Positions 1,631 to 11,684 of a stretch of DNA of 12,916 nucleotides are shown here, one piece after another. Source of the stretch: Thermoplasmata archaeon (GTDB lineage: Archaea; Thermoplasmatota; Thermoplasmata; Thermoplasmatales; Thermoplasmataceae); the NCBI GenBank assembly GCA_021835265.1, contig JAKBQK010000533.1, positions 1 through 12,916 of the forward strand. The letters run 5' to 3'. Below the pieces are notes generated by a model. It was not told the origin of the DNA and did not search any database. It saw only the letters and a program-made list of their open reading frames with translations. Each line of letters starts with the position of its first letter. The stretch's first letter is position 1. A program made the translations under genes and the position numbers.

Positions 1631-4390
1631 ATGAACAAGAAAGATGCAAATGCAACAGATGATTATGGTATTGATTTTGAAAGAGTTGTAGAACTCATAT
1701 CCAAATATGAACAGAGAAAAAAATCAGGGGAAATCAAGCGATTGGGTGAAACTGAGACCAGAGAGGATTTTATCAATCCCTTGTTCAAAGCTCTTGGTTG
1801 GAATATGGAAAATAGGCTTAACAGAAATGACTCAGTAAACAAGGAAGAAAATATAGCCGGTAAAAGAAGCGATTACAGTTTCAGGATTAATGGCATTCCT
1901 AAGTTTTTCCTTGAAGCAAAATCATTGAAAGAGGAGAATATACAAACAAATTCAAAATATGTTGACCAGGCAATTAACTACGCATGGATGAAATCATGTT
2001 CATGGGCAATACTGTGTAATTTTGAGACTATTGCAGTATTCAACGCAGATTGGAAGGGATCTAATTTTGGAAGCAACCTTCTATTTGTTTTGCACCCTAG
2101 TGATTTTCTTTCTGATAAGAGATTTGAGCATCTGTCAAAGGCGGCGTTTCTAAACAATGAGCTCGACAAGATTGCATCTCAATACGGTAAAAAACAAACA
2201 AAGAACCCAATCAACAAACAGCTATTGCAGGATATGATCCATTTTCGCGAAATTCTATCAAAAGATATCATACGAAATAACCAAAACAGGCAGTTGTCTC
2301 AAGATGACCTTGATGAATCAGTCCAGAGAATTCTTGACCGTCTAATTTTCATAAGGAATGCCGAGGACAGAGAGCTCGAAGAAAATCGTCTGCAATCCAA
2401 CGTAAGGCAATGGGCATCTAGGGGAAAGGGTCAATTAGTTAAGGAAATTTCTAAAGTATACTCATATTATGATGATGAGTACAACAGCAAACTCTTTGCT
2501 AAGCGGCTTTGTGATGAACTATACCTTGACAATGAGGTTTTGCTGGAGGTAATTGAGGGGTTAAATCACTCTAAAGATAACTCATATAGGTATGATTTCT
2601 CTATAATTGAGTCTGACGTTCTTGGAAACATCTATGAACAATACCTGGGAAATATTCTCAAGGCCACATCAAAGAGGGCAAATCTATCGGAATCCAAGAC
2701 ACATAGGAAAGAGCAGGGCATTTATTACACGCCCTCAAATGTTGTGGATTACATTGTCAAGAACACCGTTGGTGAATATCTTAAAACTCACACTCCAGAC
2801 GAAATCAAAAATGTCAAAATACTTGACCCCGCATGCGGTTCTGGAAGCTTTCTTATACGTGTATACAAAGAGCTTGAGAATTATTGGAAAGAGGAGTTGA
2901 AGCTTGATAAAAGTGGTTTGAAACAAACGAGTTTTGATATGGAGAATTCAGAGAAAGTGTATACCCTTAAAACAAAAATTCTAATAAACAACATTTTTGG
3001 CGTTGACCTTGACCCAAAAGCAGTGGAAATTGCTCAGTTGAATTTGTTATTACAGATTTCTGAAAGAAAACATAGGTTGCCTGAACTTCAAAGAAATATC
3101 AAGATTGGAAATAGTTTGATAGATGATTCTGCAGTTAGCGATAGGGCTTTCAAATGGGAAGAAGAATTCCCGGAAATCATGAGAGAAGGTGGCTTTGATA
3201 TTGTAATTGGAAATCCTCCATATGGCGCAGACTTAACGAGTGCTGAACTTGATTACTTGAATGTTAATTACTTGACAAATAGTAAGAAGAATTACGACAC
3301 CTATCCTCTGTTCATGGAAAGAGCTAATTCAGTTCTTTTGAGAGGCGGGTATTTCTCCTTCATTGTTCCTGACACCTTCTTACGGAAGAATGATTTTAGA
3401 CCTTTTCGAGATTTTTTGTTGTCAAGATTCCAAATCAAAAAGATATTCGAAGTTGGACATGTATTTGATGACGCTAAGGCAACTGAAAATGCAATTTTCA
3501 TAGGATTAAAATGCGAAAAAGATCACCAGGATTATTCATTTCAACATATGTTCCTGAGTAAAAAAAAGCAAAGAGATGTAAGATTAGCGATGATATCAAA
3601 CGAGGACTCTGATATTAACAATGCTGTTTCTTATTCTACAATTGAAGACCTTGAACAGAAAGATTTTCGTTTATTTAACGGCAGTCAGTTCTTAAGTTTA
3701 ATAAACAAAATTGAAAAATTTCCAAGACTCGACCGTATAGACGGAGTGAAAATATCACGTGGGAGTGAAGGGGGTAAAAACTTGATTTCTTTGTCAAATA
3801 CCTCCTTTAAAATGAAACCTATTCTGATTCCTGATGATATCTGGAAGTTTGGATATAGATATAGCAACAGATATTTTCCCATAAATGATCCGTCAAGTCT
3901 TAAATATCAAAAACCAAAAATAATGGTGATAAGAATAAGGAATGATAGTTTAAAAGACAGGATTATTGCGTCTTACGACGAATCTGGGTATTTCACCTTG
4001 AAGACTATTCAAATTCTCAATGTTCAAGATGATAACAAGAATGAGTTGAAATTCTTGCTTGCTATTCTAAACTCCAAATTAATGAACTTCTATTGCACCC
4101 ATCGTTTATCTGACGATATGAACAAAGCGTATTTGTCAGCCCTTAGAGTCCCACAACCAACGGAGAAGGCTGATTTGCAAATAAGAGATAGTATAGTATC
4201 CAAGGTAGGTAATCTACTTGACATCAATAAAGAACTGAATGACATAAAAGGAAATGTCACAGATAGATCATCTGAACTAACAGAAAAGGAATTGGACATC
4301 AAAATGGACATTGACAAGTTGGTGTACTCGTTGTACGGGTTAACCAATAAGGAAATTTCACTTTTGGAAAATGCGGAAGAAGTCATTTAG
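1631..4390 (+). CDS. Type IIG restriction-modification enzyme (fused nuclease, N6-adenine methyltransferase and target recognition)
   Basis: A 919-aa single chain. The N-terminal nuclease domain has the family lead-in TREDFINPLFKALGW (about 43-57) and a PD-(D/E)xK site: D81 in KRSDYSF, then E95 and K97 in FFLEAKS. A helical connector covers about 200-350. The methyltransferase core has motif X-like GIYYTP (363-368), motif I DPACGSGSF (399-407), an NNIFGVDLDPKAVEIA motif II region (about 453-468) and motif IV NPPY (528-531), the order and catalytic tetrad of gamma-class N6-adenine methyltransferases. The last ~300 residues carry the target recognition region. Length fits the Eco57I/Type IIG range. 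It would methylate and cut foreign DNA without separate subunits. The ATG follows the CBS-HEPN stop by 11 bp. The reading frame is intact, and all key nuclease and methylase residues are present. Confidence 0.93.
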   Translation: MNKKDANATDDYGIDFERVVELISKYEQRKKSGEIKRLGETETREDFINPLFKALGWNMENRLNRNDSVNKEENIAGKRSDYSFRINGIPKFFLEAKSLKEENIQTNSKYVDQAINYAWMKSCSWAILCNFETIAVFNADWKGSNFGSNLLFVLHPSDFLSDKRFEHLSKAAFLNNELDKIASQYGKKQTKNPINKQLLQDMIHFREILSKDIIRNNQNRQLSQDDLDESVQRILDRLIFIRNAEDRELEENRLQSNVRQWASRGKGQLVKEISKVYSYYDDEYNSKLFAKRLCDELYLDNEVLLEVIEGLNHSKDNSYRYDFSIIESDVLGNIYEQYLGNILKATSKRANLSESKTHRKEQGIYYTPSNVVDYIVKNTVGEYLKTHTPDEIKNVKILDPACGSGSFLIRVYKELENYWKEELKLDKSGLKQTSFDMENSEKVYTLKTKILINNIFGVDLDPKAVEIAQLNLLLQISERKHRLPELQRNIKIGNSLIDDSAVSDRAFKWEEEFPEIMREGGFDIVIGNPPYGADLTSAELDYLNVNYLTNSKKNYDTYPLFMERANSVLLRGGYFSFIVPDTFLRKNDFRPFRDFLLSRFQIKKIFEVGHVFDDAKATENAIFIGLKCEKDHQDYSFQHMFLSKKKQRDVRLAMISNEDSDINNAVSYSTIEDLEQKDFRLFNGSQFLSLINKIEKFPRLDRIDGVKISRGSEGGKNLISLSNTSFKMKPILIPDDIWKFGYRYSNRYFPINDPSSLKYQKPKIMVIRIRNDSLKDRIIASYDESGYFTLKTIQILNVQDDNKNELKFLLAILNSKLMNFYCTHRLSDDMNKAYLSALRVPQPTEKADLQIRDSIVSKVGNLLDINKELNDIKGNVTDRSSELTEKELDIKMDIDKLVYSLYGLTNKEISLLENAEEVI

Positions 4391-4646: not shown

Positions 4647-4869
4647 TCAATGAGCGAATTCTTTTTCCACAACAAAGAGCACCTTTTCTTGAATCAAAAT
4701 TTGACCCATTTCGCGGTTCAAATCTGGAAAATGAGTTTCTTTGAATCCATACATAGGGCAACCCAAATCTGAAAACCTCTTTAGACTCTGTAATTCAACG
4801 GTGCAATTCGTGTACACTGCAAATGGATGACTGGAATGTTTCGCCCAGTCAAGAGAATCCGAATAAAAA
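4647..4869 (-). pseudogene. Frameshifted C-terminal extension of the TGT-like gene
   Basis: Directly past the TGT-like stop (4870-4872), another minus-strand frame is open for about 75 codons and ends at TGA 4649-4647. It begins YFDFYSDSLDWAKHSSHP and ends VVEKEFAH. The frame is reached from the main one by skipping one base in the A-run of ACAAAATTATTTTG (around 4871-4885). It has no upstream start of its own: a TGA closes it about 35 nt earlier, inside the main gene. It therefore reads best as the original C-terminus cut off by a one-base insertion. Programmed frameshifting or a sequencing error are the alternatives. I do not recognise a domain in it. Confidence 0.45.
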
Positions 4870-6060
4870 TCAAAATAATTTTGTCTGGTTCCTCAAAGTT
4901 TGGGAATCAAATGTTTCAGAAAGAACAGGAATGACGTGTCTCCTCTCCTTTAGGTCCTCCAAGAGTTTTCCATTATGAAACAATCCACTGGAGCGTTCTA
5001 CAAATGTATGAACTCCAAACACATCGTGGATTTTGAATGCGTCTGCAAGGCTTCCTTCATATTCTGCTGCAACATCATCTATGGATGAACCTGTACATAT
5101 GGGGCAATTACATGAAGCAAGAGATGACCCGTGTATATCTTTATGAAGAGGGATTGGTAGATACCCCCCAGTTAGATGATCGTATCTCCTAGCATTTCTT
5201 CTTTCGTTCGCTATTTTTTTTGCCTTTTCAGCTGTATTAGTCTGCTTAACCTTTTCTTTATTCTTTTCTTGGGTACCAAATGGTGGTCTTCTAAATACAG
5301 GAGAGGCGAAATCGGATGCTAAAAAGCTAAGTGGGTAAAGCCCACCTGAGCTCTTCCTATTTGGATAAGTTTTCTCGACGCCAGAGATTATTCTTAACAA
5401 CGTCTCTTTGGATCTCATTTCAGAAAATTTGTCATAATTTCGATAAGAAAGTCTGTAATCTGCATAAAGGCCAACTATTCCTGAAACCACTTCTCCCATG
5501 ATATCAATCTTCAATGAGAACAAATTCTCTTCAGTATCCATAGGGATCGCGTATAATGGTATTTTCCCATTGTCGATTATATTCTTAGTAAGGTATGTAG
5601 CAATTGTTTTCATTTCCTCAGTTGGAATAATTAAGGAGTCCAATATCGTCACAAAGTCTAATTGGGTATTTAGCTGCATTTTAACAAGTGCTTCTATCAA
5701 TTTTCGTGAGATTCTAACGTTTTTGTCTATAATAGGGACATAATAGCTAGCTCTTGTTTGCGAATATGATTTCGCAAAAGATACATTTTGGTTGATAGTA
5801 TCAGAATGTTTGTCTCTACCTTCCAGGTTAATTATTCTATCCTCGATGTGTGATCCCAGAAGAAAATCTTGATTTTCAAACACCTTGTTTGGGAAATGAA
5901 TGTCTATCGCAAAATCACTAGTAATTCGGCTGGCGCGAGTTAAATCTGATTTGGTTACTGAAGTTACTGGAGTTCGTATAAATTGATTCCCAATAAAAAC
6001 TGAGCCTCTTCTCTCGCCGAATACGAATTCGTCATCTATGTCTATTTCAATTTTGAACAT
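4870..6060 (-). CDS. TGT-like (DpdA/archaeosine transglycosylase-like) base-exchange protein
   Basis: 396 aa. The back half aligns by eye with tRNA-guanine transglycosylases: LDFVTILDSLIIPTEE (134-149) resembles the D-x-V-M-x-L-D-E-C-x-P-x-P segment; FLASDFASP (246-254) matches the nucleophile region FDxxxP, making D250 the candidate nucleophile. YDHLTGGYLPIP precedes a zinc site CNCPIC (C317, C319, C322) and H345 in KIHDVFGV, with the 23-residue Cys-His spacing of archaeal TGT. The usual DSGGFQ loop is not evident, so it is a divergent member, as DpdA proteins of 7-deazaguanine DNA modification are. The expected chemistry is guanine exchange for a 7-deazaguanine in DNA or RNA; the substrate is unknown and no precursor-synthesis genes are nearby. 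The ATG overlaps the upstream gene by 14 bp: last gene of a four-gene operon. The C-terminus may be truncated by a frameshift. Confidence 0.6.
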   Translation of the reverse strand: MFKIEIDIDDEFVFGERRGSVFIGNQFIRTPVTSVTKSDLTRASRITSDFAIDIHFPNKVFENQDFLLGSHIEDRIINLEGRDKHSDTINQNVSFAKSYSQTRASYYVPIIDKNVRISRKLIEALVKMQLNTQLDFVTILDSLIIPTEEMKTIATYLTKNIIDNGKIPLYAIPMDTEENLFSLKIDIMGEVVSGIVGLYADYRLSYRNYDKFSEMRSKETLLRIISGVEKTYPNRKSSGGLYPLSFLASDFASPVFRRPPFGTQEKNKEKVKQTNTAEKAKKIANERRNARRYDHLTGGYLPIPLHKDIHGSSLASCNCPICTGSSIDDVAAEYEGSLADAFKIHDVFGVHTFVERSSGLFHNGKLLEDLKERRHVIPVLSETFDSQTLRNQTKLF

Positions 6061-6349
6061 TCACTTCCTCCACATCATTTTCCTTGACTACCAATTCAAA
6101 TATTTGTTCATAAGGTGTCAGTCTATAGATTCTCTTCCTAGCATCTTTTGGATCAAAGTTCGTTGCAACCCATCCTGATTTTCGTAGCTCTGATAGGAGA
6201 AGCGTCACTAGTTTTTTACTGTCGGAAAATTTTGTTCTAGCCAATAAATCGGCAGCTTCATCTAGCGTGAAATTTCTATCACGTAAATTCTCCCACAGAA
6301 CCAAGTAACGTTTCATAAGCCATTTAGAAAGTAATTGAATATTTGACAT
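6047..6349 (-). CDS. Small winged-helix-like protein
   Basis: About 100 aa from ATG 6349 (MSNIQLLSKWLMKRY). An ATG at 6394 would add 15 residues but overlap the previous gene by 41 bp, whereas 6349 lies 4 nt after that gene's stop. The pattern is helix (NLRDRNFTLDEAADLLA), helix (DSKKLVTLLLSELRKSGWV), then a beta wing (RKRIYRLTPYEQI), a winged helix-turn-helix layout. It overlaps the TGT-like start by 14 bp, so the two are translationally coupled. Likely a DNA-binding regulator or targeting partner of the operon; which of these is not visible. Confidence 0.55.
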   Translation of the reverse strand: MSNIQLLSKWLMKRYLVLWENLRDRNFTLDEAADLLARTKFSDSKKLVTLLLSELRKSGWVATNFDPKDARKRIYRLTPYEQIFELVVKENDVEEVNVQN

Positions 6350-6353
6350 GTAA

Positions 6354-6605
6354 TTACTTATTGGATATGTAAACCCATTTAATAAGTTTTCCATTCCAAT
6401 TTTCTATGTCTGATAGGACATCAATCTCTCTCTTGAACCTGCGATATCTGGCAATAGCATAGTGCGTACAATAACCTATACCATAGATTGAAACATATGT
6501 TTTCCACTCCTCACATGGATCCTCATGTTTCCAGTTTTTTTTCCACTCCTTTTCTTGCTTTACAAGGTCTAACACTTTCTCATGATGTCGACTAAACTGT
6601 GTCAC
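6354..6605 (-). CDS. 83-aa hypothetical protein, operon member
   Basis: It starts at a GTG whose bases overlap the stop of the DUF2080 gene (GTGA, 4-bp overlap) and ends 4 nt before the next start, so coupling supports it as a real gene. The protein is rich in Trp, Lys and aromatic residues (EKEWKKNWKHEDPCEEW; two Cys; YAIARYRRFKRE) with a likely helical front. I do not recognise a family. Its position suggests it works with the TGT-like and winged-helix products. Confidence 0.55.
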   Translation of the reverse strand: MTQFSRHHEKVLDLVKQEKEWKKNWKHEDPCEEWKTYVSIYGIGYCTHYAIARYRRFKREIDVLSDIENWNGKLIKWVYISNK

Positions 6606-6769
6606 TTAATCACCATCACTAAGACTCTCTTTCCTACCCATTCTTTTGGGACATACACTTTGCCAGCATTGTTAGAATTCTGAGAAACGACTTTCTCATA
6701 AATCTCAACATTTTCAACGTTTATGCGTAGTTCTGAGAGGTCTATTTTTATAGGTTTTGATTTTGACAT
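6602..6769 (-). CDS. DUF2080-family small transposase-associated protein (AbrB-like)
   Basis: 55 aa, found by reading the minus strand from ATG 6769 to TGA 6602. The C-terminal half (EKVVSQNSNNAGKVYVPKEW, then VGKRVLVMVIK) matches the DUF2080 signature: an asparagine/glycine turn followed by (K/R)VYVPKEWxGKxVxV. Members are small beta-rich proteins resembling AbrB swapped hairpins, common in archaea beside mobile elements. It is the first gene of the leftward operon and overlaps the next gene by 4 bp. A perfect inverted repeat sits at its start codon, so it could bind its own promoter; that role is inference. Confidence 0.75.
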   Translation of the reverse strand: MSKSKPIKIDLSELRINVENVEIYEKVVSQNSNNAGKVYVPKEWVGKRVLVMVIK

Positions 6770-6791
6770 AGTAGCTAATTTATAGCTACTA
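6769..6791. promoter_or_regulatory. Operator-like 8-bp inverted repeat at the start of the leftward operon
   Basis: TAGTAGCT (6769-6776) and AGCTACTA (6784-6791) are perfect reverse complements separated by 7 nt. The repeat fills the space between the TATA-like box and the DUF2080 ATG and includes the first base of that ATG. If transcripts are leaderless, a bound repressor here would block initiation. Confidence 0.55.
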
Positions 6792-6795
6792 ATTA

Positions 6796-6805
6796 ACTAT
6801 AAAGT
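6796..6805. promoter_or_regulatory. Shared divergent TATA-like box
   Basis: ACTATAAAGT on the plus strand reads ACTTTATAGT on the minus strand, a TATA-like sequence in both directions. It lies about 30 bp before the DUF2080 ATG (6769) on one side and about 26 bp before the TTG at 6830 of the zinc-ribbon gene on the other, spacing that suits leaderless archaeal transcripts. Confidence 0.45.
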
Positions 6806-6829
6806 TTTCCACTACAATAAAATTCAAAA

Positions 6830-7320: not shown

Positions 7321-7794
7321 ATGATATGGATCGGTGTAGAAATGTCAGAAACTAGGTCCATTGATTTTGATACAGTCAAAGAAGTTTGGAATTCTTATGA
7401 ATTGAATGATAAGAATACGATTATGGTGAAGTCTGTGGTAACTAATATCCTTAAGAAACTGACGACGGATTATGTTACAGGGTTTCCAGAGTATGTTGGG
7501 CAAGTAAATACTGTCGTTCGCGTAAGCAGCAAAACCCTAAATAAGGATAAAACAGGAGAAATCCCAAGTAAGGATACATGGCCATCTATACCAAAAGAAC
7601 AGATGAGAGTTAAAAAGGTTCTAAAAGAAGACTGGAATGCATATGAAGTTGATGACGGTTATATATTCCAACTTAAGCCAGTAGTTGTTGATGTTTACAA
7701 ATTCACCGATTTATTTGACCAGAACGGTCTTCCTTTCTATGTAGTACAGACGATACCGGTTGGGCGAACAGTGAAAAAGAATGTCGATAAGTAG
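7321..7794 (+). CDS. Hypothetical protein made of two copies of one ~50-residue domain
   Basis: 157 aa from ATG 7321 (or 150 from ATG 7342, preceded by GGTG). Residues 22-71 and 104-153 align without gaps at an offset of 82. Shared positions include W, N, Y, E, D, K, VV, K, then G-x-P-x-YV-x-Q, V, R and K, 17 identities in 50. Each unit looks beta-rich with a hydrophobic VV strand and a G-x-P turn, suggesting an internally duplicated small barrel. No catalytic motif is seen and I know no name for the family. It is the first gene of a three-gene unit: its end overlaps the next start by 14 bp. It could be a scaffold, binding or antitoxin-like subunit; this is not shown. Confidence 0.7.
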   Translation: MIWIGVEMSETRSIDFDTVKEVWNSYELNDKNTIMVKSVVTNILKKLTTDYVTGFPEYVGQVNTVVRVSSKTLNKDKTGEIPSKDTWPSIPKEQMRVKKVLKEDWNAYEVDDGYIFQLKPVVVDVYKFTDLFDQNGLPFYVVQTIPVGRTVKKNVDK

Positions 7795-8515
7795 TACAGT
7801 TCCTACAATGGAAAATACTCCCCCATCCTGGGTCAACACCGGCGAAGTGCGTGTTACCAATGTGAGTGCTATTGTATCTGAATCTCTTTTCTCTTTCGAT
7901 TATTTTGTCGTAGATAACAAAATGGAGACAGTTATATCTGTAGAAGTAAAGGTTAATCGACATGGTTCCTCGCATATGAGATCCCCGCGTATGTTTAGTG
8001 TGAAACCTGACATGATCATTGCTTCTTCGAGATGCGAACTTGAGTCCTTATTTCCAACTGAACTGGAGCTAACATATCACGAGACGAATCCAAATATAGA
8101 AACATCCATCATTACTGCTCGAGCTTCAAAAAGGGGGCTAAAGTTAAGTGATATAATACTTGAAACCGGGATTGCTAAGGTAAACCCAGCTAAAATTGAA
8201 GAATTTGACAGAGTGTCCCATCTTTTTATGGGTGGTGGTTCCAATTATTTTATTGAAGACTTGAAGTCAGCCATTTCCTGCGTAAATTATGAGTTGGTAA
8301 AGACAGGCAAGAAGAACAATAGCGATTACAAAATTGAAGTGGATGTCTCTATTGATCCGGAGGTCAAGTCATGGACAAACTTCCCACTTGTCGTTAAGCT
8401 GAGGGAAGAAAGGGTGGAAAAGTTGCTGGAATTATGGGAGTCCTTGAACTTTAAGTGTTGCCCTAAAAAGACTTCGGAAACCTTGTTATTCGTGGATGTA
8501 GTTTTTTGGGACTAA
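7781..8515 (+). CDS. Hypothetical protein, middle gene of HEPN cassette (244 aa)
   Basis: Starts at ATG 7781 inside the end of the previous gene (14-bp overlap) and ends 6 nt before the HEPN gene. I do not recognise it. The N-terminal third is beta-rich (GEVRVTNVSAIVSESLFSFDYFVV; ETVISVEVKVNRHG). A mixed middle contains FMGGGSNYFIEDLKSAIS, and the C-terminus has a DYKIEVDVSIDPEVKSW strand pair followed by a charged helix (REERVEKLLELWESL). It has no membrane span or signal peptide. Coupling on both sides says it works with its neighbours, perhaps as the partner that holds the HEPN protein in check or targets it. Confidence 0.65.
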   Translation: MSISSTVPTMENTPPSWVNTGEVRVTNVSAIVSESLFSFDYFVVDNKMETVISVEVKVNRHGSSHMRSPRMFSVKPDMIIASSRCELESLFPTELELTYHETNPNIETSIITARASKRGLKLSDIILETGIAKVNPAKIEEFDRVSHLFMGGGSNYFIEDLKSAISCVNYELVKTGKKNNSDYKIEVDVSIDPEVKSWTNFPLVVKLREERVEKLLELWESLNFKCCPKKTSETLLFVDVVFWD

Positions 8516-8521
8516 GTATAG

Positions 8522-8911
8522 ATGAACCCTAAAGAATTCATGAAATTTTCTGAAAGACTGTTGAATGATCACTCTTCATATCCCGGAGACATGTCCGAGG
8601 GAATGTGTAGAACAGTCATAGACCGTTATTATTATTATGTTTTTTTAACACTTAGGTCGTGTTTAGAAAGCTTGGGGTACAATATAAGTAGAAAGGCCGA
8701 GGCACACAAAGAGGTGATGGAGCACGTTGACAACTTATTTGGTGTGGGCAACTTGTTTACTACTTTACGATTCACAAGAGATGACGCTACATACGATTTG
8801 AATAAAAGATATACTTTGAAGGAAGCCACTCTCTTCAAAGCCAAAGTGGAAAAGTTTATTTCGACTGTTACTTCCAATCCGAACTATAAATCATTTTCTG
8901 ACTGCTTATAA
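8522..8911 (+). CDS. HEPN-domain protein (UPF0332-like)
   Basis: 129 aa, nearly all helical. RTVIDRYYYYVFLTLRSCLE (30-49) matches the sRaYYavF helix of UPF0332/HEPN proteins. An AHKEV segment follows (61-65), then TLRFTRDDATYDL (81-93), matching the R-x(n)-DY motif. The usual RX4H is R86-DDAT-Y91 here, so the catalytic histidine is replaced by tyrosine as in many UPF0332 members. This may mean weak, altered or absent RNase activity. Related HEPN proteins act as toxins, effectors or RNA-binding partners in defence and toxin-antitoxin loci. It is the last gene of the cassette, 6 nt after its neighbour. Confidence 0.7.
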   Translation: MNPKEFMKFSERLLNDHSSYPGDMSEGMCRTVIDRYYYYVFLTLRSCLESLGYNISRKAEAHKEVMEHVDNLFGVGNLFTTLRFTRDDATYDLNKRYTLKEATLFKAKVEKFISTVTSNPNYKSFSDCL

Positions 8912-9023: not shown

Positions 9024-10136
9024 TTGTACCAATACTATGACACACAAATTATATATCTCTTATGGGCATTATTCTTGCGCACTTTGGGCATAAGAAGTTT
9101 TTTGGACAATCTCGACGATGATGCATATAATTTGATTCTAAGTGACTCACTTATGTGGATAGAGTCTGCTTTGGAGGATCTGAAGGTATATGGTAGGATT
9201 CGTCAACAAAATGATATTTCTTTCCCAGTTAGTATTGAGTTCATACAAAGGGCTTTAGAGAAGGCTATAAAGATAAATGTTCATTTTTTTAAAATGATAC
9301 TCTTGGTTGCCAATCTTGGTTCTCAAATCCCATTCGAAGAAAAGTTGAAAGAACAACCAATAAATGAAAGCTTTACCCAAGACACCTTAACCTTCTTCGG
9401 TTCTGTTTTTGAAACTTTCCGTGGTCTTCAAGACCCAAAAAATTTAGGGCACACTCCATGCAATGTAATGCTCAAGAGATTGTCGAAGCTGGTTCCCAAT
9501 AATTCAAAACTTCTTCGAATATTAGAAAATGAAAAGAACGCGATGGATGAATTGATCTCAAATGATATCGTCTCTAGACCGGATGCTGAACTCTACTTTA
9601 GTTACGCGAGCAGATTAAGAAAATATCATTTGCAGGTTTTGAAAGAAACTCCAACTGGAATCATAACATTTGATGAAACCGTAAAAAGAGTGAAAAAACT
9701 GCAAGAAAATGCTCCGAAAGATGAATTTGGCCTTTTGGTATATGCGGTTATTCATAGTCGCTTGATACACCACACACTTACTCGGATTGTAACACTTACT
9801 CCAATGCAGAAATATGAATCAGATTTGAAACAAATTGACTTGGTATTGGCTGAAATCCACAATGAAATGGTCCAAGAAAGAATGAATTCGGTTTTTTATA
9901 AGGGAATGAAAGAATTTTTTAATGGGATATTCATTATTTCAAAGTTTTTTCCACTTTGTAATTTCCTCGGCAGGAATTATACCAAATTAAAGTACCCCCT
10001 TGACAGTTCATCCTCCACACACGGAGAAAAAATATTTGGGAATGAAAACATAGATAAGTTAAATTCATTTTTCATTTCTGTCGCAGAAGACCTAAATGAA
10101 GCACTTAAAGGAATTTCACTATGGTTAAAATCTTAA
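9024..10136 (+). CDS. 370-aa hypothetical helical protein
   Basis: The only start choice near the front of the open frame is TTG 9024 (a TAA closes it at 9009), so the true start is uncertain. TATA-like sequences occur at 8958-8966 and 9003-9011; the first gives sensible spacing for TTG 9024, the second does not. The product is mostly alpha-helical, with a hydrophobic start (IIYLLWALFLRTLG), possible hydrophobic patches at about 88-96 and 300-320, and a charged middle. HSRLIHHTLTRI and the long helices hint at an Abi- or HEPN-like fold, but no RX4H motif is present and I do not recognise a family. Its codon use and AT content resemble the preceding cassette, so it may be the fourth cargo gene. 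The IS lies 58 bp past its stop. Confidence 0.6.
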   Translation: MYQYYDTQIIYLLWALFLRTLGIRSFLDNLDDDAYNLILSDSLMWIESALEDLKVYGRIRQQNDISFPVSIEFIQRALEKAIKINVHFFKMILLVANLGSQIPFEEKLKEQPINESFTQDTLTFFGSVFETFRGLQDPKNLGHTPCNVMLKRLSKLVPNNSKLLRILENEKNAMDELISNDIVSRPDAELYFSYASRLRKYHLQVLKETPTGIITFDETVKRVKKLQENAPKDEFGLLVYAVIHSRLIHHTLTRIVTLTPMQKYESDLKQIDLVLAEIHNEMVQERMNSVFYKGMKEFFNGIFIISKFFPLCNFLGRNYTKLKYPLDSSSSTHGEKIFGNENIDKLNSFFISVAEDLNEALKGISLWLKS

Positions 10137-10194: not shown

Positions 10195-11684
10195 GTATAG
10201 GTCAGTTTGATGTGCACTAACCCGGATGGGCTTCTTTCCTGTTGTTCGACGCCGGCACATCCCTTATAGTGCTCTTTTTCCTCAGCTTCTGTGTGTAGAA
10301 TATGGATGAGAGCGTTGCATATGCTTCCGCTCCCCGACCGATCTGGATCCACCGGAGACCTTCCTGTATATTACGGCGGGTCTCAGAGCCCTCTCCGCCC
10401 GGTTGTTGGTCGATTCCACCTCCGGATCGACAACGAACCTGAAGAGCCAGTCCCTTCTCCGCATGAGAAGGTTGTTCACAAACTTCCTTAATCTTCTGTG
10501 TGCGTAATCCCTGCTCAGGAGGAATACGAGAACCCCGTAAAGGCGATCCACATCCTCCATTGTACCATGGCCACGGAAGGATTTAGCCTCTTCATGCACC
10601 TTCTCCAGGGATTCCTTGATAATCCTTCCCTCGTAACCGTAGAATCCCTCAAGTTCCTTTGCGTCACAGATTATGTGCGATCAGCAGTACTGCTGGGGAT
10701 TCTTCGTCTTTCCCGCGAGGGTTTCGAACGTACTTTGTCTGTTATGGACATCCGTGTCACTGTGTTTTCCCAGCAGATCGAGGGCAACCTTATGGTTATT
10801 GCTCCCTGAGACATAGAATATGGCCCCTCTTTGGTGACAAAGACCCAGAGTGCATGGTTCCCGCCGTTCTTCCTCCAGGTTGTTGTGTCCGTGTACCTGG
10901 AGGGGGCTTTCCTTATGGATTCCACAAGGCTGTCATATTCCGACCCGAGGGCATGCGACAGCTGGTATACTATCTCCTGGATCTCGCCTTCCGAGATGCG
11001 GATGCCGAATATCTCCCTCATGGCAGAGGAGACAGATTCAACGCTCATCCTCGCCGTCTGATTCAGGTATGCTGCAATGAGCATGGTACGCAACGATAAT
11101 CTTGCTGAGGTAAGGGCATCCGGGATCTCAGGTTCCACAACCTTTCCGCAGGATCTGCAGTACATCCTCTCGATCCTGTACTGTAAAACGCGCGGAGATA
11201 TCTCAGGAATACCCTAGATCACCCTTGTACGCATGCCCTTCCTCACTAGGATGGGGGGCATTCAGGGCAGGTGAACTGATCCGCATGGACCTTGATGCGC
11301 TCCGTGATCCCCGGAATCTTCCTGTAATGTCCCCTATGGCCGTGCTGTCCTCTTGGTTTTCTTTTCGCATGAGTGGTATCCGGGGCGGAAGATTCCTCCC
11401 TGATCGCGTATGGATGGCTGTTCTTCACGTCCACTGTGGAAGGATGCCTCTTCCCGTATTCTTCCAGTTCCTCCATGAGTTCTCTGTTCTCTTCCTGCAG
11501 ACGATCGACAATCTTCTTGAGGTTCTCGTAAGCCCTCTGGAATTTCTCGATCATCTCCTGGTCACGCGGTGTTTCTGCAAGAAGCCGGATCATATTGCTA
11601 ATATAATGTACTAGGGATATATGGATCTTTTGCGTATCAGAACTGGTAAAATAAGATCAGCGTGCACAGAAGACTGACCAGTAA
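10195..11684 (-). mobile_element. IS66-like insertion sequence (about 1.49 kb), decayed
   Basis: Terminal inverted repeats: GGTCAGTTTGATGTGCAC at 10200-10217 against the reverse complement of 11662-11679, GGTCAGTCTTCTGTGCAC. Extended to the 8-bp direct repeats, 17 of 23 end positions agree. The interior is clearly more GC-rich than its surroundings and carries one transposase gene on the minus strand. The insertion is 58 bp past the stop of the 370-aa gene. The exact direct repeats show it arrived by normal transposition and has not been rearranged since. Confidence 0.82.
10217..11593 (-). pseudogene. IS66-like transposase, multiply frameshifted and with nonsense codons
   Basis: Order on the minus strand from ATG 11593: a coiled-coil N-terminus (EKFQRAYENLKKIVDRLQEE), an H/R-rich linker (RGQHGHRGHYRK), a zinc-finger part (CPEC, later YCRSCGK), a helical DNA-binding region, the first catalytic Asp region YTDTTTWRKNGG, a QQYC(W)SHIICDAKEL block, and ESTNNRAERALRPAVIYRK with the catalytic Glu, ending at TAG 10217-10219. 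Lesions: a shift in a C6 run near 11250; an in-frame TAG near 11220; a shift in a G-run near 10826; TGA in place of the expected Trp near 10680; and a shift near 10340. The gene cannot make active transposase. Confidence 0.85.

Follow-up and report, generated by a model that had tools for sequence, protein, structure and literature searches.

A mobile four-gene operon of Thermoplasmatota encodes a putative tRNA-guanine transglycosylase relative that lacks the catalytic aspartates

The roles of the two catalytic aspartates of tRNA-guanine transglycosylases (TGTs) are set out in PMC6165067. Members of this family have been described in genome defence, namely in Dpd and in the BREX-related capture (BRC) systems of PMC12839542, and DpdA occurs in phages and archaeal viruses (PMC6884629). 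DUF2080 figures in PMC10440598 as the antitoxin SpnP2, in a validated pairing with a nuclease toxin. Here we describe a four-gene operon on contig JAKBQK010000533.1 of a Thermoplasmata archaeon, analysed as one stretch of 12,916 nucleotides (the window), in which a predicted TGT-fold protein is encoded together with a DUF2080 protein, an 83-amino acid protein and a winged-helix protein. The four minus-strand open reading frames (ORFs) lie at positions 6769–4870, as stated in a first-pass annotation of this DNA. The operon recurs with identical gene order in a Candidatus Thermoplasmatota metagenome-assembled genome (L001, JAMDDH010000061.1), where the gene 4 protein is 91% identical, and in genome G397 of the same order as the L001 genome (L003), where it is 33% identical. 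The features of the operon are as follows.

6602..6769, minus strand: gene 1, DUF2080 protein (PF09853) of 55 amino acids (aa), matched in Pfam and NCBIfam.
6354..6605, minus strand: gene 2, 83-aa protein with no assigned family, GTG start, orthologues in L001 and L003.
6047..6349, minus strand: gene 3, winged-helix protein of ~100 aa, ATG at 6349, weak HTH_27/MarR/PadR-like matches.
4870..6060, minus strand: gene 4, predicted TGT-fold protein of 396 aa (TIM barrel plus C-terminal zinc subdomain), with a TgtA profile match and the barrel in the model.
5026..5112, minus strand: codons of the gene 4 zinc motif (C317, C319, C322 ... H345), aligning with CxCxxC...H of TgtA.
6769..6791, no strand: putative operator, a 23-bp inverted repeat TAGTAGCT-N7-AGCTACTA (8-bp arms, 7-bp spacer) whose last base is the A of the gene 1 ATG.
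6797..6803, minus strand: likely TATA box TTTATAG, ~31 nt before the ATG, read from the sequence.
4849..6829, minus strand: extent of the mobile cassette, from blastn to L001 3542–5523 (92.6% identity over 1985 columns).

Genes 1 and 2 share a GTGA overlap, genes 2 and 3 are separated by a 4-nt gap when gene 3 starts at 6349, and genes 3 and 4 overlap by 14 nt. A second in-frame ATG of gene 3 lies upstream, at 6394, and the start at 6349 was picked by comparison with L003. Identity to the L001 and L003 copies is 90 and 48% for gene 2 and 95 and 46% for gene 3, and gene 1 is 31% identical to its L003 copy. The ratio of non-synonymous to synonymous changes (dN/dS, Nei-Gojobori) between the window and L001 is 0.16, 0.35, 0.10 and 0.21 for genes 1 to 4, all below 1, the gene 2 value being based on only 13 differences (5 synonymous and 8 other). 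The recurrence of the gene order in L001 and in the divergent L003 is beyond chance, and the four-gene operon is confirmed as real. The first-pass annotation had called the four genes one coupled unit, which agrees with the verified overlaps and gap and with the recurring order; the search for this order in other archaea that it had proposed found it in L001 and L003.

The shared block consists of the operon with 60 bp upstream and 21 bp downstream; beyond it, the window (12.9 kb) and the L001 contig (7.9 kb) match only over 23 nt (E 0.46). Because the 92.6% DNA identity is limited to the operon (~2 kb) and the flanks are unrelated, the operon is considered a mobile cassette. The genes had previously been assigned to a mobile element, and the end of the identity at 4849–6829 is in line with an operon that moves as a unit. 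The four genes of the block gave no transposase match and no convincing terminal repeats were found, for which reasons an insertion sequence (IS) element proper was rejected.

The inverted repeat ends at the gene 1 ATG in the window, L001 and L003, with identical arms in all three. The L003 repeat keeps 16 of 16 arm bases and 19 of 23 positions overall; the 48 bp upstream match at 15 of 48. A scan of 400 genomes for the repeat pattern found it only in the two with the operon, G001 and G397, as a single copy located at the operon. Of 2000 composition shuffles of the 73-bp region, 45 also gave perfect arms of at least 8 bp, and the weight of the repeat therefore rests on its conservation. From the likely TATA box and its distance to the ATG we infer a leaderless archaeal promoter. 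Perfect 8-bp-arm inverted repeats of other sequence, sought inside the reading frame and in the 120 bp before it, accompany five of the six IS-type DUF2080 genes examined in G397 (of nine), and shuffles of these stretches contain such repeats in 5–9% of cases. This hints that DUF2080 might bind the repeat, and is only a hint because some of the copies are paralogues and some of the repeats are AT-rich. The IS-type DUF2080 genes with repeats near their starts are those of loci L047, L048, L050, L051 and L052.

Direct searches with the gene 4 protein (Pfam, NCBIfam, PADLOC and PDB sequences) returned neither TGT nor any other family above chance, and PDB sequence searches that included gene 4 family profiles gave chance-level matches only. 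Comparison of the gene 4 family with TgtA by hhalign gave 95% probability, a pairwise E value of 3.6e-8 and a score of 64.6, where the highest control scores were 23.2 in 100 column-shuffled comparisons and 19.6 for the reversed profile. Residues 301–396 match TgtA with a pairwise E value of 1.1e-8. The gene 4 protein is thereby shown, on profile evidence, to be a TGT relative by its zinc subdomain. The TGT-like assignment made in the first-pass annotation thus stands for the C-terminal zinc subdomain by profile comparison, but finds no support in direct searches with the window protein, and the check it suggested against TGT and DpdA by structure and profile yielded the TgtA zinc subdomain but not DpdA, whose score fell below the reversed control. 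For the N-terminal part, a TIM barrel is predicted from an alignment containing no TGT. When the members were compared with TGT models, 12 members and G428b had no match, and the G428 member reached 12.2 bits with PF01702 (26.3 needed) and 11.3 with TgtA (350 needed). The 13 weak-match loci read from the class scan (of 18) were all that genome's own archaeosine TGT (arcTGT), matched at the CxCxxC site.

The catalytic positions were read in a 14-member family alignment, in which three members share 89% identity or more with the window protein and from which P0003, a 260-aa fragment, was excluded, and in a reference set of 19 TGTs. The position of the TGT nucleophile is occupied by Ser in 13 of the 14 members (Ser253 in the window protein) and by Thr in one. 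The register is clearest in the G428 members, with GIDSFS and GLDTFT compared with GxDxFD in 19/19 reference TGTs. D250 was dropped as a candidate nucleophile, since the G428 members set the register of D-x-F-[S/T] against D-x-F-D and so place S253 at this position. The TDSG[GTA]F motif with the second catalytic Asp is in register in none of the 14 members and in all 19 reference TGTs; P0005 and P0011 contain an unrelated DSG elsewhere in the sequence. The arcTGTs of the two operon-bearing genomes (L032 and L033), which fall outside the reference set by its zinc motif requirement and were read separately, keep both aspartates (GVDVFD, GVDVVD, TDSG) and have lost the CxCxxC zinc cysteines. As these host enzymes keep their aspartates without zinc cysteines, zinc loss alone does not signify a dead enzyme, and in these alignments it is the aspartate loss that distinguishes the gene 4 family from TGTs. 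A 391-aa bacterial-type TGT is also found beside the arcTGT in G397 (L031), through gene transfer or as a foreign contig in the bin. With the nucleophile Asp and TDSG absent in 14/14 members, canonical base exchange is unlikely. TGT- or DpdA-like deazaguanine insertion by gene 4 is likewise unlikely from its residues, and other chemistry or pure binding is possible; a plain TGT paralogue was rejected for want of the catalytic aspartates. Residues P31, N58, E62, P109, Q129, Y199 and S226 are invariant in all members.

A protein search with gene 4 gave five entries at first and eleven once a distant member was added. In 400 genomes of the class, matches with E < 1e-50 were confined to the genomes of L001 and L003, the next match being at 6.5e-4; the 117 genomes of their order gave these two again together with two weak short matches, the 77 genomes of G001's family gave one match, and the 389 genomes of the phylum added G428 and one weak match. 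The weak matches in L011, L014, L015, L017, L020, L023, L024, L027–L030 and L069, as well as those of G356 and G374 (without loci), lie outside the set that was read. Viral contigs scanned for relatives of the gene 4 family, the 83-aa family and TgtA yielded none, and tblastn in phages and plasmids gave a single chance match with an E value of 2. Rfam gave no match on the window.

G428 contains two TGT-fold paralogues (L068 208–2100 and L072 352–2610), each located after a zinc-ribbon/winged-helix gene. They share 20–27% identity with most other members in local alignments and 27% with each other (E 1e-27). The gaps between partner and TGT-fold gene are 0 and 10 nt, and the partners are themselves paralogous (29% identical, E 2e-26). 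The first partner matches the MqsA antitoxin (E 0.0045) and HTH_45 (E 4.2e-5), and the other matches DUF4364 (E 0.0046), DarG (E 0.008) and the MqsA-type TIGR03830 (E 0.03); none of these matches reaches its cut-off. The first partner is preceded, with a 4-nt overlap, by a gene resembling DUF4258 (E 7.9e-5, 23.3 bits compared with a cut-off of 25).

In the window operon, the gene 1 protein matches DUF2080 with E values of 1.6e-6 in Pfam and 1.6e-8 for NCBIfam NF033496, and the L001 copy matches with an E value of 6.2e-6 in Pfam. Family searches with the 83-aa gene 2 protein gave no convincing match (best NCBIfam E value 0.011, far under the cut-off). Its residues H27, C31, C46 and H48 are kept in 3/3 copies (window, L001 and L003) and could possibly form a metal site. 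The gene 3 protein has weak MarR/PadR-like matches and matches to HTH_27 (E 0.011) and MsvR (E 0.0006), both under cut-off.

Positions 1631–4390 on the plus strand of the window encode a type IIG restriction-modification enzyme (HSDR_N, Eco57I, TaqI_C; PADLOC E 4.6e-110). The neighbours in L001 are an NgoFVII-type PLD nuclease and an OLD/GajA-like TOPRIM protein. Downstream of the G397 cassette, at 15777–19124 on the minus strand of L057, genes for an ATPase, a 336-aa protein without assigned family and a SIR2-like protein (PADLOC Aga_SIR2, E 3.3e-21) stand in a row that looks like a defence operon. Transposase genes or remnants are located within ~4 kb of each cassette (window, L001 and L057). 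Broken fragments of an IS66-type transposase lie at 10282–11165 on the minus strand of the window (Pfam E 1.5e-10 and 2.4e-5). Possible HEPN proteins are encoded on the plus strand at 837–1619 and 8522–8911, with weak matches to HEPN_Apea (E 0.037) and PADLOC HEPN_IX (E 2.2e-5). Plus-strand ORFs of 157, 244 and 370 aa at 7321–8515 and 9024–10136 have no significant Pfam, NCBIfam or PADLOC match.

Our interpretation, held tentatively and at somewhat less than even chances, is that the operon is a cassette of Thermoplasmatota that spreads horizontally, regulates its own expression and acts in defence or in the manner of a toxin-antitoxin system, with a TGT-fold protein retooled as effector. The toxin-antitoxin-like interpretation is mainly supported because the TGT-fold gene swaps partners and yet stays with zinc, winged-helix or antitoxin-like genes. 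With type II toxin-antitoxin systems the cassette shares an antitoxin-type gene (DUF2080), gene overlaps and an inverted repeat at the likely promoter. Also in favour are the recurring gene order, the operon-specific conservation of the repeat, the cassette boundaries, dN/dS below 1 in each gene, the TGT kinship with its predicted barrel and Ser/Thr at the nucleophile position, the SpnP2 precedent for DUF2080, and defence-type genes near each of the three cassettes. In the proposed mechanism, DUF2080 and/or the winged-helix protein would repress the operon by binding the repeat, which lies between the likely TATA box and the start codon, and the TGT-fold protein would be the main effector, restrained or delivered by the small upstream proteins. 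During infection or stress, its barrel and zinc subdomain would bind tRNA or a different structured RNA, which would then be blocked, sequestered or altered without 7-deazaguanine exchange. The most likely, but unproven, target is tRNA, and an antiviral RNA function of the operon, the broader suggestion of the first-pass annotation, is possible. Possible roles of the 83-aa protein are those of a small metal-binding partner and of a second toxin that pairs with DUF2080.

Several observations weigh against this interpretation. The four-gene form was seen in context only three times, two of them near-identical, and the 244-aa partner in G428 has no detectable relation to genes 1–3, so that the partners are not strictly conserved. 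The L003 gene 1 protein matches DUF2080 with an E value of 0.029, under the cut-off, and none of the matches to MqsA, HTH_45, DUF4258, MsvR and HTH_27 reaches its curated cut-off. The zinc ligands are complete in 8 of the 14 members of the gene 4 family, partial in 2 and lost in 4. Residues 1–300 alone compared with TGT are not significant (E 0.04–0.2 in seven comparisons; 0.2–0.6 for reversed profiles). The barrel has block values of the predicted local distance difference test (pLDDT) of 27–60 from residue 231 onward, and the 50 structural matches listed in each of two comparisons do not include TGT, a result that marks the barrel as generic and no more. The defence-type neighbours of 3/3 cassettes are a raw count from few loci. 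Toxicity, neutralisation and RNA binding of the cassette are putative.

A possible, though rather unlikely, alternative is that the gene 4 protein is a catalytically dead TGT relative which merely senses RNA (tRNA) for the winged-helix regulator or serves it as a scaffold; DUF2080 and the 83-aa protein would then be the true toxin-antitoxin pair, and the TGT-fold protein would not be the effector. The absence of nucleophile and TDSG in 14/14 members would fit such a role, the small, overlapping genes 1 and 2 resemble a type II pair in size and arrangement, DUF2080 has its antitoxin precedent in PMC10440598, and a DUF4258-like gene stands before the unit in one G428 locus. However, every operon form seen, G428 included, retains the TGT-fold gene, and residues N58, E62, Q129, Y199 and S226 are invariant in 14/14 members, as an active site might be. 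Moreover, no DUF2080/83-aa gene is present among the G428 ORFs listed, which are those of at least 50 aa at one locus and at least 60 aa at the second, where a 55-aa gene could have been missed; they were not searched further.

It is doubtful that the genes are transposon passengers or accessory genes, in which case DUF2080 would mark an insertion element and the block would transpose with no role in defence. NCBIfam labels DUF2080 as transposase-associated, and G397 contains nine further copies, several adjoining presumed transposase ORFs. Movement of the block as a unit and the transposase genes or remnants near the window, L001 and L057 cassettes are also consistent with transposition. In contrast, the shared block has no recognised transposase-like gene or convincing terminal repeats, dN/dS is below 1 in 4/4 genes, and defence-type neighbours are found at 3/3 loci. 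Also doubtful is a reading in which the TGT-fold protein, without its covalent nucleophile, would represent a new toxin class that has changed from base exchange to base removal and depurinates tRNA or other RNA of infected archaeal cells. It would be held in check by exchangeable antitoxins, with DUF2080, the 83-aa protein and the winged helix here and an MqsA-like zinc-ribbon/winged-helix protein elsewhere.

The suggestion of the first-pass annotation that gene 4 inserts deazaguanine in the manner of DpdA does not hold, and a DpdA-like enzyme that puts 7-deazaguanine into DNA is very unlikely. In its favour are the TGT kinship of gene 4, the restriction gene nearby in the window, and QueC-family genes in both operon-bearing genomes, each of which also has its own full-length arcTGT. 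As QueC-family genes and arcTGT are present, preQ0 may exist in the hosts; nothing connects it with the operon. Against it, the family has no DSG in register and no nucleophile Asp in 14/14 members, and none of the 15 window ORFs scanned (of 52 listed) matched a 7-deazaguanine gene. In addition, hhalign of the family against seven phage DpdA proteins gave a probability of 0.1% and a score of 11.9, compared with 17.7 for the reversed control, whereas the same seven match arcTGT with 60% probability; a DpdA identity for gene 4 was rejected on this score. An extra TGT for archaeosine synthesis is hardly credible, since archaeal TgtA is the closest profile relative found but both hosts keep a full-length arcTGT with both aspartates, the catalytic residues are absent from the gene 4 family, and the cassette is mobile and patchily distributed.

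If the effector interpretation is true, mobile, regulator-coupled cassettes near archaeal defence genes have taken up a tRNA base-exchange fold that lacks its catalytic aspartates. Archaeal immunity would thereby gain an RNA-directed type of effector, and there would be a concrete case of a modification enzyme turned toxin or sensor. The operon also cautions that TGT-like genes on mobile DNA do not necessarily signify DNA deazaguanylation. Among the papers listed by an open-access literature search for TGT with defence or toxin-antitoxin systems, none names these four parts together, in keeping with the earlier remark that such a system is undescribed, and the terms sought were absent from PMC4158269 on archaeal dark-matter islands.

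Compared with arcTGT/TgtA (PF01702), the gene 4 family has in common the CxCxxC...H zinc subdomain with the stretch after it and a weak colinear similarity; this includes the TP that follows the N-terminal hairpin, and a spacing of Q-x11-D, a pattern found in 15/19 reference TGTs. A TIM barrel, generic in type, is predicted as well. It differs in having Ser/Thr at the nucleophile position, in lacking TDSG, and in falling below all TGT model cut-offs, and gene 4 is shorter, mobile and set in an operon. arcTGT carries a PUA-type extension, which gene 4 is too short to fit. The host arcTGTs show the reverse of gene 4, with aspartates kept and zinc ligands lost. DpdA proteins, too, are TGT relatives that have diverged and are often encoded on mobile or viral DNA, but the seven phage DpdA keep DSG[AG][FY]-type motifs and have no CxCxxC...H, opposite to the gene 4 family. 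BRC systems also place a TGT-family protein in a defence context, archaea included, yet they contain PglZ, DUF6079, a STAND NTPase, DUF4007 and HerA (PMC12839542). Pfam scans for PglZ, HerA/FtsK, DUF6079 and DUF4007 found none in 15 window ORFs or 10 L001/L057 neighbours, and the 15 window ORFs gave no match for the STAND NTPase. Type II toxin-antitoxin systems with DUF2080 (SpnP2) or MqsA-type antitoxins resemble the cassette in their small overlapping genes, start-codon inverted repeat and antitoxin-type domains; the cassette differs in having four genes with a large TGT-fold protein and no known toxin activity. QTRT2, the non-catalytic subunit of the eukaryotic TGT (PMC6165067), shares the TGT fold and the replacement of both catalytic aspartates, but its partner is an active TGT, whereas the partners of gene 4 are regulator-like.

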